Source: Maribacter sp. HTCC2170 (GTDB lineage: Bacteria > Bacteroidota > Bacteroidia > Flavobacteriales > Flavobacteriaceae). From it: a stretch of 64,000 bases of DNA. Both the position numbers and the translations under genes were made by a program. Location of the stretch: NCBI RefSeq assembly GCF_000153165.2, contig NC_014472.1:1671501-1735500 (forward strand), given 5' to 3'. Positions 2 through 2,739 of this stretch are shown here, piece by piece. Numbering within the stretch: position 1 is the first letter of the stretch; the number at the start of each line of letters is the position of its first letter. The notes beneath the pieces are model-generated. The model saw nothing but the letters and a program-made list of their open reading frames with translations. It did not search any database and was not told the origin of the DNA.

Positions 2-349
2 AACAGCAGTCTTTCGTTCCTAGAAGATAATAGCTTAAAGGCAGATGTGAGTTTTCTCTATTCCTCACCTGTAATACAAGGAAATTCTAGACAAGAAGAG
101 TACAGCAGAATGGGGATAGCGCTAAGGAAGACCATATTTAACAAAGCAGGAAGTATATCATTGGGGGTTGATGATATTTTCAATAAAGCAAAGCTTTTTA
201 ACACGAGAAATTATCTTAACCAAAATAATACGTCATTTTACCGACCTGAAAGCCGAATGTTGGTATTAGGATTAAGATACAAGTTTGGGAATACAAAGAT
301 TCGGACAAACAAAAAATCAAGAAAAGTTGAGGAGCGAAATAGAATTTAA
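2..349 (+). CDS. C-terminal end of a TonB-dependent outer-membrane receptor (partial)
   Basis: The reading frame is open from base 2, so the gene starts before the window and only about 115 C-terminal residues are seen. They show alternating beta-strand patterns, the segment SLGVDDIFNKAKLFNTRNY and the near-terminal motif LRYKFGNTK. This is how the last strands of the outer-membrane beta-barrel family that closes many Bacteroidota TonB-dependent receptors look. A basic tail of about 18 residues follows the last strand. The substrate cannot be told from this piece. It is convergent with the next gene, 6 bases away. Confidence 0.72.
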   Translation, partial: NSSLSFLEDNSLKADVSFLYSSPVIQGNSRQEEYSRMGIALRKTIFNKAGSISLGVDDIFNKAKLFNTRNYLNQNNTSFYRPESRMLVLGLRYKFGNTKIRTNKKSRKVEERNRI

Positions 350-355
350 TTCTAG

Positions 356-571
356 CTAAAAACCACCCATTAAGCCACCGCAGATTCCAAGGCTAATCAA
401 TAAATAAACACCAGCAAGAATAAAAAGAACTTTTGACGCTTTCTTTTTTTCATTTGCCCTCAACGCAAAGCCAATAATTACGAGTACTATTGCGGGGCCA
501 AACATAATTAGAAAAAGTATGGCGACAAGACCATCTAAGTTACCAACCTCAAGAACCGATAGACTATTCAT
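356..571 (-). CDS. Small two-helix membrane protein, function unknown
   Basis: A 71-residue protein starting at an ATG. It has one hydrophobic segment at about residues 14-37 and a second at about 47-70, joined by a basic loop (RANEKKKASK), and it ends in a glycine-rich GGLMGGF tail. No catalytic motif is visible and I do not recognise the family. It starts 31 bases after the stop of the radical SAM gene on the same strand, so it is probably the third gene of that operon and may be a membrane partner of it. Confidence 0.6.
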   Translation of the reverse strand: MNSLSVLEVGNLDGLVAILFLIMFGPAIVLVIIGFALRANEKKKASKVLFILAGVYLLISLGICGGLMGGF

Positions 572-602
572 TTGCTATTTGTTGTCTTACTAAGTTATTA
601 AT

Positions 603-1994
603 TTAAATTTCATTTCGAAGATGAGTTAGTTTTTCAACCTTTTCATCTCTGTAAAAAAGATTCATAGTTTCAAAAGGAATTATTTTATAATCTTTGTTCA
701 CAATGTGCACACATGATTTTTTTATTGCTCGAACATCAAAATTATGGGCATCTATGAATTGCATGATAATTATTCTGAATAAATTGTCGTAACCCAATTC
801 AGGGGCATCTATCTCCGGAAGACAGCACATAATCGATTTTAAATTTTCCGAAGCCTTTTCAACAGAATTCCCTGTACTGAAAAGCTCGATCATTTTACCC
901 TGTAATTCGGCATCTTGTTCATAAATAATCGTGTTTTTACCTTCATTCAATAAATCATCAGGATTTATATATCGAGTTAAAGGGCTAACCTCATTGCCCA
1001 TTTTCAGGGCATAGGCCATTACCAATGCATCGGGATTACAAGGTACAGGTATTAGGTCATCTGATTCAAAAACAGGAGATTGTTCCAAAATTTTCCTTCG
1101 GACCTCAGTCAAAGTAATTCGGTTTTCATCTACCTCAAAATTGTCTAACCTTCCCGCAATTTGTGTAGGTTGAAAGGTCACTCCACGAATACATTTTTGT
1201 TTTAAAGCGAAGTCAATGGTTTTACCCATTTCGTGATCATTCAGTCCTTTTTGAAGGGTAACGACCAATGTGGTTGAAAGGTTTAGTTGGTTGAGGTGCT
1301 CCAAGGCCTTCAATCTAGTATCGGCCAAATCGGCGCCTCTCAAAACTTGTAGCACGGTATCATCCAAAGAATCAAACTGAAGATAGATTTCGAAATCCGG
1401 GGCGTAGGCAGCCAGTTTTTTTGCAAAGGCAAATTCTTTGGCAATTTTAATACCATTGGTATTCAGCATTAAATGTCGAATGGGCAACGATTTTGCATAA
1501 TCCAAGATTTCGAAGAAATTGGGATGTATTGTTGGCTCACCTCCGCTTATTTGAACGACATCGGGCTCACCCTCGTTTTTGACAATGGTGTCCAACATTT
1601 TTTTTATCTCGTCCAAGCTTCTATGTCTTCCATAAGTAGGTGAGGACGAGGCATAACATGTGGGACAAGTAAGGTTGCAGCGGTCAGTTACTTCAACTAC
1701 CGTTAAGCACGAATGTTGTTCATGGTCTGGGCAAAGCCCGCAATCATAAGGACAACCGTAGTGGGTTTTTGTATTAAAGGTTTTAGGATATTCAGAGACC
1801 TTGTTATAGTTGCGAATATTCTTATAGTATTCAATATCATCCGCAATCAAGACTTTTGAATTGCCGTGTTCTTTGCAATTCTTGAGCATATATACTTTCT
1901 CATTCTCAAATATAATTTTAGCATCCACACGCCTGAGACAGTCAGGACAAAGGCTTAAAGTAAAATCATAGTACGTGTAGTCTCTTGTAGGCAT
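603..1994 (-). CDS. Radical SAM protein of the Tes/MJ0619-like group
   Basis: A 463-residue radical SAM enzyme. The cluster motif CNLTCPTC (C106, C110, C113) binds the 4Fe-4S that cleaves S-adenosylmethionine, and GGEPT at 151-155 is the usual SAM-contacting motif. Ahead of it lie extra cysteines (C16, C19, C40, and C81/C85/C88 in CPYDCGLCPDHEQHSC), an N-terminal layout that I associate with archaeal MJ0619 and the tetraether lipid synthase (Tes) group. Those enzymes join or modify unreactive C-H bonds in lipids or pterins. The product here is unknown. The start overlaps the 3' end of the Lgt-like gene by 29 bases, suggesting translational coupling. The family call is firm, the lipid role is inference. 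Confidence 0.85.
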   Translation of the reverse strand: MPTRDYTYYDFTLSLCPDCLRRVDAKIIFENEKVYMLKNCKEHGNSKVLIADDIEYYKNIRNYNKVSEYPKTFNTKTHYGCPYDCGLCPDHEQHSCLTVVEVTDRCNLTCPTCYASSSPTYGRHRSLDEIKKMLDTIVKNEGEPDVVQISGGEPTIHPNFFEILDYAKSLPIRHLMLNTNGIKIAKEFAFAKKLAAYAPDFEIYLQFDSLDDTVLQVLRGADLADTRLKALEHLNQLNLSTTLVVTLQKGLNDHEMGKTIDFALKQKCIRGVTFQPTQIAGRLDNFEVDENRITLTEVRRKILEQSPVFESDDLIPVPCNPDALVMAYALKMGNEVSPLTRYINPDDLLNEGKNTIIYEQDAELQGKMIELFSTGNSVEKASENLKSIMCCLPEIDAPELGYDNLFRIIIMQFIDAHNFDVRAIKKSCVHIVNKDYKIIPFETMNLFYRDEKVEKLTHLRNEI

Positions 1995-2739
1995 ATGTTA
2001 TGCTATTTTTTATGAATTTGGAATAATATAATAAACAAAGTAGGCATAAATATTGAATGCTGCTCAAGCCAAGAATTAGAAAGATATTTGGTTTTAGAAA
2101 TTCCATTAAAAATCGAAATGAAAAGTAGGTTATCATGAATAGTTTGAAATAACTTCCATTGAAATCAGGTTCTTTTCTCTCAAGTAGATTTTTGATAATA
2201 ACGAAAAGCACAATAAGGAAAATAACTTCATATAAGGCAATTGGGTGTCTATGGAGTCCATCTCCTAAATCCATTCCCGAAAAGGCGTCGGTGACTTTAC
2301 CATATGTAAATTCATTTATTCCAGATAAGAAACAACCAATTCGGCCAATGATAACACCCAAGATTATGGGTAATGTGAAAAGATTGCCAGACGATTGTTT
2401 CTCTCCAATGATTTTTTTGACAAACTCTACTCCCAGTAGCCCGCCAAAGAGCCCGCCCATAATTGTCTTGTTATTTAAAATTGAAATCCAACCCTGTGCG
2501 TAGTGAACAGTAGGGTTTTCTAGAAAAGCAAAGATTCTCGAAAAAATCAAGGCTCCAAAAATTGCCCCAATGATTATTGAAAGTCGGTTGTTGGTTGAAA
2601 TGTCGTCTTTCGTATTTTTCCTTAAAATAACATAGTATCTAAACCCAACGAAAAAGGCAAGGTATTCCAAAACCAAATGAACATTGGTTTTAAACCCAAA
2701 GAATACGGGTTCGTAGGGGATGGTAAAATCAAAAAACAT
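1966..2739 (-). CDS. Lgt-like integral membrane protein (divergent prolipoprotein diacylglyceryl transferase paralogue)
   Basis: A 257-residue polytopic membrane protein with the Lgt fold. GRIGCF (132-137) matches the Lgt signature region, HPIALYE (165-171) matches the conserved HP..LYE stretch, and R209/E213 in FRFLMEF match the conserved late Arg-Glu pair. However, the HGGL motif holding the essential His of Lgt is MGGL here (94-97), and the Asn after GRxG in the signature is Cys136. It is therefore unlikely to be the ordinary lipoprotein lipidating enzyme, which should be encoded elsewhere. It is the first gene of an operon with the radical SAM protein, which suggests a lipid-linked substrate. 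Confidence 0.78.
   Translation of the reverse strand: MFFDFTIPYEPVFFGFKTNVHLVLEYLAFFVGFRYYVILRKNTKDDISTNNRLSIIIGAIFGALIFSRIFAFLENPTVHYAQGWISILNNKTIMGGLFGGLLGVEFVKKIIGEKQSSGNLFTLPIILGVIIGRIGCFLSGINEFTYGKVTDAFSGMDLGDGLHRHPIALYEVIFLIVLFVIIKNLLERKEPDFNGSYFKLFMITYFSFRFLMEFLKPNIFLILGLSSIQYLCLLCLLYYSKFIKNSITYAYKRLHVL

Follow-up and report, generated by a model that had tools for sequence, protein, structure and literature searches.

A 64,000-nucleotide stretch of the Maribacter sp. HTCC2170 genome (contig NC_014472.1, positions 1,671,501 to 1,735,500; here 'the window') carries three minus-strand genes that may form a module for C-terminal protein lipidation. They encode a paralogue of the diacylglyceryltransferase Lgt, a radical S-adenosylmethionine enzyme (rSAM) of the Tes/TrsS superfamily and a small membrane protein with a Cys near its C-terminus (Table 1). 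We assign a probability of about 0.5 to this three-component reading, in which the rSAM would alter the lipid. A first-pass annotation, made from the sequence, had described the packed operon, and its coordinates agree with ours: the Lgt-like and rSAM genes overlap by 29 bases (1966–1994), and 31 bases (572–602) separate the rSAM gene from that of the 71-residue third protein. It proposed a lipid or lipoprotein acyl-chain modification that it did not know to be described. The gene pairing stands, the idea moves to C-terminal lipidation of a dedicated protein, and the lipid chemistry is put forward conditionally. The titles and abstracts searched among open-access PMC papers contained no description of such a module.

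In the proposed mechanism, the small membrane protein would be the dedicated substrate of the module. A cytoplasmic loop rich in K/R would lead into its last helix, which would behave like an internal lipoprotein signal. At the outer surface of the inner membrane the helix would end in a lipobox that is both relocated and altered, followed by a short tail. The Lgt-like protein, with its phosphatidylglycerol-binding residues kept and its acceptor site apparently re-modelled, would transfer a (diacyl)glyceryl lipid onto the thiol of the tail Cys. The rSAM, on the cytoplasmic side, would take hydrogen atoms from unactivated lipid carbons and, either ahead of the transfer or following it, form a C–C or C–S bond within the lipid tails. 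We infer Cys lipidation at the C-terminal end because an Lgt paralogue and a Cys-ended membrane protein are kept together over wide evolutionary distances. Alteration of the lipid is the most likely role of the rSAM.

The pairing of the rSAM and Lgt-like genes is real, widely conserved and co-inherited, and is not due to chance. In a family sample of 249 genomes, the rSAM was matched in 32 (30 whole, one split over two contigs in G186 and one fragment in G072), and the Lgt-like gene was found in 31, which are exactly the rSAM genomes other than G072. The co-occurrence has a log10 p of about −39.5 if genomes are taken as independent; the genomes are related, however. The G072 fragment (C7:758703-758978) has an internal TGA, lies in a genome without an Lgt-like match and is possibly the remnant of a lost module. 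In a phylum sample of 395 genomes, 33 matched the rSAM, and the Lgt-like gene lies beside it in 29 of them. For G311 and G538 the search yielded only Lgt proteins of the other, non-module branch, and their rSAMs branch with Tes in a 30-row tree. Of 57 first loci, 55 have an Lgt-like match close to the rSAM (four of these matches are partial, where the available stretch ends); the remaining two come from G280 and G510. A scan of named genomes gave at least 584 rSAM relatives. Among the best 80, fetched with up to 4 kb of flank, 73 have an Lgt-like gene upstream; some of these loci duplicate our G-numbered genomes. The genera include Maribacter, Arenibacter, Flavobacterium, Winogradskyella, Tenacibaculum, Aquimarina, Mucilaginibacter, Chitinophaga, Niabella, Hymenobacter, Fulvivirga, Lewinella and others. 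A comparison of gene order across Bacteroidota had been suggested in the first-pass annotation, and the two genes are indeed neighbours in related genomes. Among the matches listed, the adjacency is kept where flanking genes differ between distant genomes, and no other protein cluster occurs in more than four of 20 loci, with proteases and exporters not searched for as such.

Directly downstream of the rSAM gene lie one to four tandem genes for small membrane proteins. These vary in sequence and share a layout in which a loop rich in K/R is followed by a last helix and by a Cys, in most cases 3–14 residues from the C-terminus. We surveyed them without regard to Cys, taking at each of 134 loci the most hydrophobic open reading frame (ORF) that starts between −30 and +60 of the rSAM stop; five loci were too short downstream, 18 had no membrane ORF in range and L059–L061 were not included. 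A Cys falls within the last 20 residues in 109 of the 111 ORFs (105 of 107 distinct ones). Its density there is 121 in 2220 residues compared with 31 in 5733 elsewhere in the same proteins, a tenfold difference. The tail consensus is [LIV]-[GSA]-[LFY]-[GSA]-x-Cys. A motif fitted to the tails is found in 106 of the 111 (102 of the 107 distinct) but in only 12 of 309 hydrophobic control ORFs taken at these loci, and 41 of the 111 have an N-terminal LE-x-G-like motif. The stretch ahead of the last helix has a mean net charge of +3.1, and the residues beyond the Cys one of 0.06; under the positive-inside rule this predicts a Cys at the outer face, like that of a lipoprotein signal. Because this Cys is nearly invariant, the small protein, earlier treated as a bystander, is the likely substrate, and the variable tandem copies look like substrates rather than subunits. 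In alignment A1 the invariance of the Cys arises partly by construction, since its members had already been seen to hold one; A1 has no second invariant residue.

The 18 loci without a membrane ORF in range mostly place the Cys-tail ORF elsewhere. It lies between the Lgt-like and rSAM genes at L051–L055, starts further downstream at L094, L095, L111, L127, L134, L164, L166, L167 and L168, and is about 2 kb downstream at L153; none was found at L049, L128 or L133. At L122 and L141, the two surveyed exceptions without Cys, another ORF has one. At L122 the first ORF after the rSAM has Phe in place of the tail Cys and sits beside a Cys copy, a natural decayed copy.

The window protein matches no Pfam family at E 0.001 and no known family above cut-off. 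For the other 25 small proteins compared with family models the best E value was 5.7e-5, and the tail proteins of divergent modules have no family match above cut-off. A match to a Gip immunity protein (5 of 26 small proteins, best 5.8e-5) was judged to be a likeness of short membrane helices. The small-protein profile found the module locus alone in this genome (next matches at E of at least 0.19), and a genome-wide C-terminal sorting tag is unsupported there. NF058595, a C-terminal anchoring domain, bears the name 'lipo-invert', which suggests an inverted lipoprotein-like tail and that curators suspect such tails somewhere. The window protein is not a member, at 13.9 bits against a cut-off of 37. 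With E values of up to 1 allowed, NF058595 matches 5 of 26 small proteins (best 0.04), and in 296 genomes, the window's included, it has no match above cut-off and matches below it in 36. It is not among the matches of five actinobacterial tail proteins.

The Lgt-like protein passes the Pfam cut-off for Lgt (PF01790; 84 bits versus 24.9) but misses the TIGR00544 equivalog cut-off (40.1 versus 118.9 bits). Since a housekeeping Lgt sits elsewhere in the 3.87 Mb, one-contig genome (C1:654232, 189 bits), the window gene is a paralogue. Its AlphaFold2 model (mean predicted local distance difference test score, pLDDT, 89.9) has E. coli Lgt 5azb as its closest solved fold (template modelling score, TM, 0.61). 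We aligned 105 Lgt-like sequences (104 distinct) and use E. coli numbering here. R143 and E202 are kept in all 105, R239 and H196 in 104, and Glu/Asp is kept at position 243. Passages of PMC13251419 list Y26, H103, R143, N146, G154 and R239 as essential in E. coli Lgt, and passages of PMC4728403 agree for H103, Y26 and R143. H103 and N146 occur in none of the 105 sequences and Y26 in two. G154 falls in a gap in one alignment and is Gly in the other, so its assignment is uncertain; the E151 column differs between the two alignments, and we draw no claim from it. Canonical Lgt uses phosphatidylglycerol as donor and modifies the lipobox Cys presented from the periplasmic side, and the HGGL motif, which includes H103, has been proposed to bind the lipobox peptide (passages of PMC4728403). 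Keeping the donor-binding residues while changing the proposed peptide-binding site would fit a new acceptor. As with Lgt, the presumed acceptor Cys would lie where a helix ends on the outer side, but near the C-terminus rather than after an N-terminal signal.

In a 27-row tree of a subset of the sequences, the Lgt-like proteins split from eight other Lgt (support 99/98). The Lgt-like proteins of three actinobacterial modules and of G341 agree with the core at positions 26, 103 and 146. We rejected N146C as a mark of the module, as three other Lgt rows also have Cys there. The non-module Lgt at L177, L175 and L178 combine N146C with Tyr or Phe at 103 and represent a third Lgt type. A second Lgt of Mycobacterium smegmatis, MSMEG_5408, has Y26H and N146C and a presumed low Lgt activity (passages of PMC13251419); the mycobacterial plasmid module proteins share both changes, and no module is named in those passages.

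The rSAM matches Radical_SAM (PF04055, 98.9 bits) and Zn_ribbon_HMPTM (PF23545, 68.6 bits). Its best NCBIfam model is TrsS (NF045646; 332.2 bits, cut-off 490), then Tes (NF045702; 294.7 bits, cut-off 450), with MoaA ranking third at 63 bits. The first-pass annotation had linked it to Tes and MJ0619 by a Cys-rich N-terminus and a CNLTCPTC cluster, both of which are present in the sequence; MJ0619 is itself Tes, or GDGT-MAS, in passages of PMC13274423 and PMC9433317. This kinship holds at the level of superfamily and fold, but the module enzymes miss the cut-offs and form their own clade beside Tes and the TrsS-type enzymes. The sequence match to the Tes structure 7tol has an E value of 6e-73. 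The predicted fold follows 7tom/7tol over the whole length (TM 0.79, root-mean-square deviation 5.9), in a model with pLDDT 75 that drops below 50 at residues 68–93, 114–120, 280–283 and 369–400. The core alignment has 133 rows (128 distinct; L168 dropped out), and the rubredoxin-type, [4Fe4S]N and radical SAM ligands of Tes are present in 132–133 of them. The rubredoxin-type spacing is that of Tes, C9X2C12X20C33X2H36. Met439 and Tyr459 are reported, in the passages available, as fully conserved in 1000 archaeal Tes homologues; Met411, the equivalent of Met439, is Met in 128 of the 133 core rows. With the Tes fold and most of its cofactor ligands retained, a Tes-like reaction on lipid tails is plausible. 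Tes itself binds phospholipids in its active site (passages of PMC9433317).

A 30-row tree of a subset of the rSAMs splits all module enzymes from Tes and the methyltransferase-linked relatives with moderate support (91/81) and carries long-branch warnings. The module rSAM does not group there with a family of known non-lipid function, although the 30 rows included no characterized family of that kind. The methyltransferase-linked relatives, from M. vanbaalenii and two haloarchaea, adjoin a methyltransferase, and the annotation of the stretch examined has no Lgt; we take them as putative TrsS-type enzymes. They share H94, C96 and C319 with the module rSAM, and Tes does not. The literature passages on TrsS gave no function for it. 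The bacterial membrane-spanning lipid synthase Mss, compared here by description only, is called Tes-like in architecture in passages of PMC13274423, which mention no Lgt-like or small-protein partner. A link to defence or phage was discarded, since matches to pVip (50 bits) and PHROG rSAMs cover only the generic rSAM domain (about residues 92–256).

The triad persists although its members diverge widely and their gene order changes, which supports lipidation by the module. In G363 and G397 (L072 and L074) the rSAM is about 39% identical to that of the window. The gene order is rSAM, a membrane methyltransferase, a second gene, Lgt-like and a small Cys-tail protein, with tails of LLFGAC or LIFGSC plus a few residues. 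We take the two middle genes to be isoprenylcysteine methyltransferase (ICMT)-like and DUF4395-like; the latter is clear in L072, and only a short ORF was called at its place in G397. The Lgt-like proteins of this ICMT type keep Tyr26, and the methyltransferase might add a carboxyl methylation. G341, a phylum-level relative, has the triad with the tail LSGGMC. Plasmids of Mycobacterium avium and M. branderi carry the Lgt-like gene, two small proteins each and the rSAM together; the tails are AGIC, AGYC, GGLC and VGVC, with TGLNP after each. The Nonomuraea locus, on an 11.85 Mb record filed under plasmids, has a proline-rich protein of 368 aa that ends in AGIC-TGINP and precedes the Lgt-like and rSAM genes. 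Groups branch in one and the same order, ((actinobacterial, G341),(ICMT, core)), in the rSAM tree and in the Lgt-like tree. On the M. branderi plasmid an IS200/IS605 tnpA and a TnpB-family gene directly follow the module (L189, 7734-9379).

Several observations weigh against C-terminal lipidation by this module. The reading is drawn entirely from sequence and predicted structure. The Lgt-like protein lacks H103, has Cys for N146 and is changed at Y26 in most members; having lost residues essential in E. coli, it may not carry out Lgt chemistry. The rSAM falls below both the Tes and TrsS cut-offs, has Ile in place of Tyr459 in 131 of 133 core rows, and lacks several C-terminal Cys positions of Tes while having new ones at C319 and C390/C391. 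The [4Fe4S]N ligands are absent from the rSAMs of the three actinobacterial modules and G341. On the substrate side, the canonical lipobox [LVI]-[ASTVI]-[GAS]-C after an N-terminal signal is not found: the Cys is near the C-terminus, and the residue before it is G/A/S in only 8 of 109 ORFs and bulky (I, T, V, L, Y, M) in most. The tail motif was written after the tails had been seen. A late Cys is also seen in 142 of the 309 hydrophobic control ORFs, which are mostly spurious, as well as in 58 of 370 long ones, so the Cys by itself is a weak test, and the weight rests on the motif and its recurrence. Finally, the Lgt-like and rSAM genes are on separate contigs in G280 (L067, L180) and G510 (L070, L181), from which it follows that the module can be dispersed. 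In seven of the 80 named loci (L120, L129, L133, L143, L148, L150 and L164), of which some lie close to the end of a contig, the flank shows no Lgt-like gene. A motif scan, which is not exhaustive and misses the true tail at L070, turned up no small gene at L128 or L133, or near either gene in G280.

The components could instead serve a membrane-lipid pathway without protein lipidation, which we consider unlikely. The rSAM would couple or remodel phospholipid tails as a relative of Tes or Mss, the Lgt-like protein would move diacylglyceryl to a small-molecule acceptor, and the small protein would be a membrane subunit with its Cys as a ligand or transient acyl carrier. Such a pathway could explain why H103 of the lipobox-peptide motif HGGL is lost while R143 and R239 are kept, and Tes does use phospholipids (passages of PMC9433317). 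However, the small proteins are variable, occur in one to four copies and are conserved mainly in the Cys motif, which is odd for a subunit, and the tail of the long proline-rich Nonomuraea protein looks more like a tag. It is rather improbable that the small proteins are lipopeptide precursors, lipidated on Cys by the Lgt-like protein, cut before the Cys by a protease to release a signalling or antimicrobial lipopeptide of 4–15 residues, and tailored by the rSAM. Signal peptidase II does not favour bulky −1 residues such as most of these proteins have, and among the matches listed no further protein cluster occurs in more than four of 20 loci, with proteases and exporters not searched for as such. 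The tails are nevertheless short, variable and present in tandem copies, and hybrids of lipoproteins with ribosomally synthesized and post-translationally modified peptides have been described in Bacteroidota (PMC12636315).

The rSAM might also modify the peptide itself, for example by a radical thioether or C–C crosslink at or near the Cys, with the Lgt-like protein acting on the product. Peptides are common substrates of radical SAM enzymes that have auxiliary clusters, the window enzyme matches peptide maturase models (40–59 bits, over the generic domain), and the methyltransferase-linked relatives, unlike Tes, also have its H94, C96 and C319. We nonetheless regard peptide modification as quite improbable: the tail is predicted to be outside and Fe–S enzymes are cytoplasmic, the small-protein alignment offers no second invariant residue, and the fold and most ligands follow a lipid enzyme. 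Ordinary accessory acylation, with the Lgt-like protein as a second Lgt for normal N-terminal lipoproteins and unrelated neighbours, seems very improbable given its strict co-occurrence with the rSAM, its separate branch (99/98), a non-aromatic residue at position 103 in all 105 sequences and the canonical Lgt elsewhere in the genome. Membership of the same Pfam family would be expected under accessory acylation, and position 103 does vary (Y, W, F) in other Lgt (passages of PMC13251419).

Table 1. Features of the proposed lipidation module. Positions refer to the window unless a locus is named; counts are aligned sequences with the residue.
Feature	Position	Strand	Remarks
Lgt-like integral membrane enzyme, housekeeping-Lgt paralogue	1966..2739	-	257 aa; PF01790
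Tes/TrsS-superfamily radical SAM enzyme (rSAM)	603..1994	-	463 aa; PF04055 + PF23545
Small membrane protein with K-rich loop and C-terminal Cys, proposed substrate	356..571	-	71 aa; homologues beside module
Lgt-like H21, at E. coli Y26 position	2677..2679	-	His in 103/105
Lgt-like M94, at H103 (of HGGL) position	2458..2460	-	M/V/I/L/A/T in 105/105, never His
Lgt-like C136, at N146 position	2332..2334	-	Cys in 105/105
Tail motif I-S-L-G-I-C ending at Cys64, then 7 residues	380..397	-	Tail survey of downstream ORFs
Rubredoxin-type motif C16-X2-C19-X20-C40-X2-H43	1866..1949	-	Cys in 132-133/133, His in 132/133 core
[4Fe4S]N ligands C81, C85, C88, H91	1722..1754	-	133/133 core + 3/3 ICMT-type
Radical SAM CX3CX2C, C106/C110/C113	1656..1679	-	Cys in every aligned row
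ICMT-type operons	L072 7486-11088; L074 3435-6941		ICMT-like + DUF4395-like (clear in L072) between rSAM and Lgt-like

Beside the operon, the end of an OMP_b-brl_3 outer-membrane beta-barrel gene lies at window positions 2–349, convergent with it.

C-terminal lipidation by the module could be taken a step further, in a tentative and somewhat doubtful form, as a bacterial counterpart of eukaryotic C-terminal lipidation. The Lgt paralogue would attach a radical-crosslinked lipid, possibly membrane-spanning or macrocyclic and made by the Tes-superfamily enzyme, to the C-terminal-end Cys of small proteins or tags. The ICMT-like enzyme of the divergent operons may then add a carboxyl methylation. 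If true, a single protein anchor would unite chemistry of the lipoprotein type with that of archaeal tetraethers.

Some bacteria that are not known to make such lipids have Tes homologues (Lloyd et al., passages of PMC9433317). The module gives one large group of these homologues a specific setting, beside an Lgt paralogue and a candidate Cys substrate. It also offers a possible role for divergent Lgt paralogues whose activity is presumed to be low (passages of PMC13251419). The triad is carried by many Bacteroidota and some actinobacterial plasmids. If C-terminal lipidation by the module is correct, many named, culturable Bacteroidota would lipidate proteins at a site and by a chemistry that are new for bacteria.

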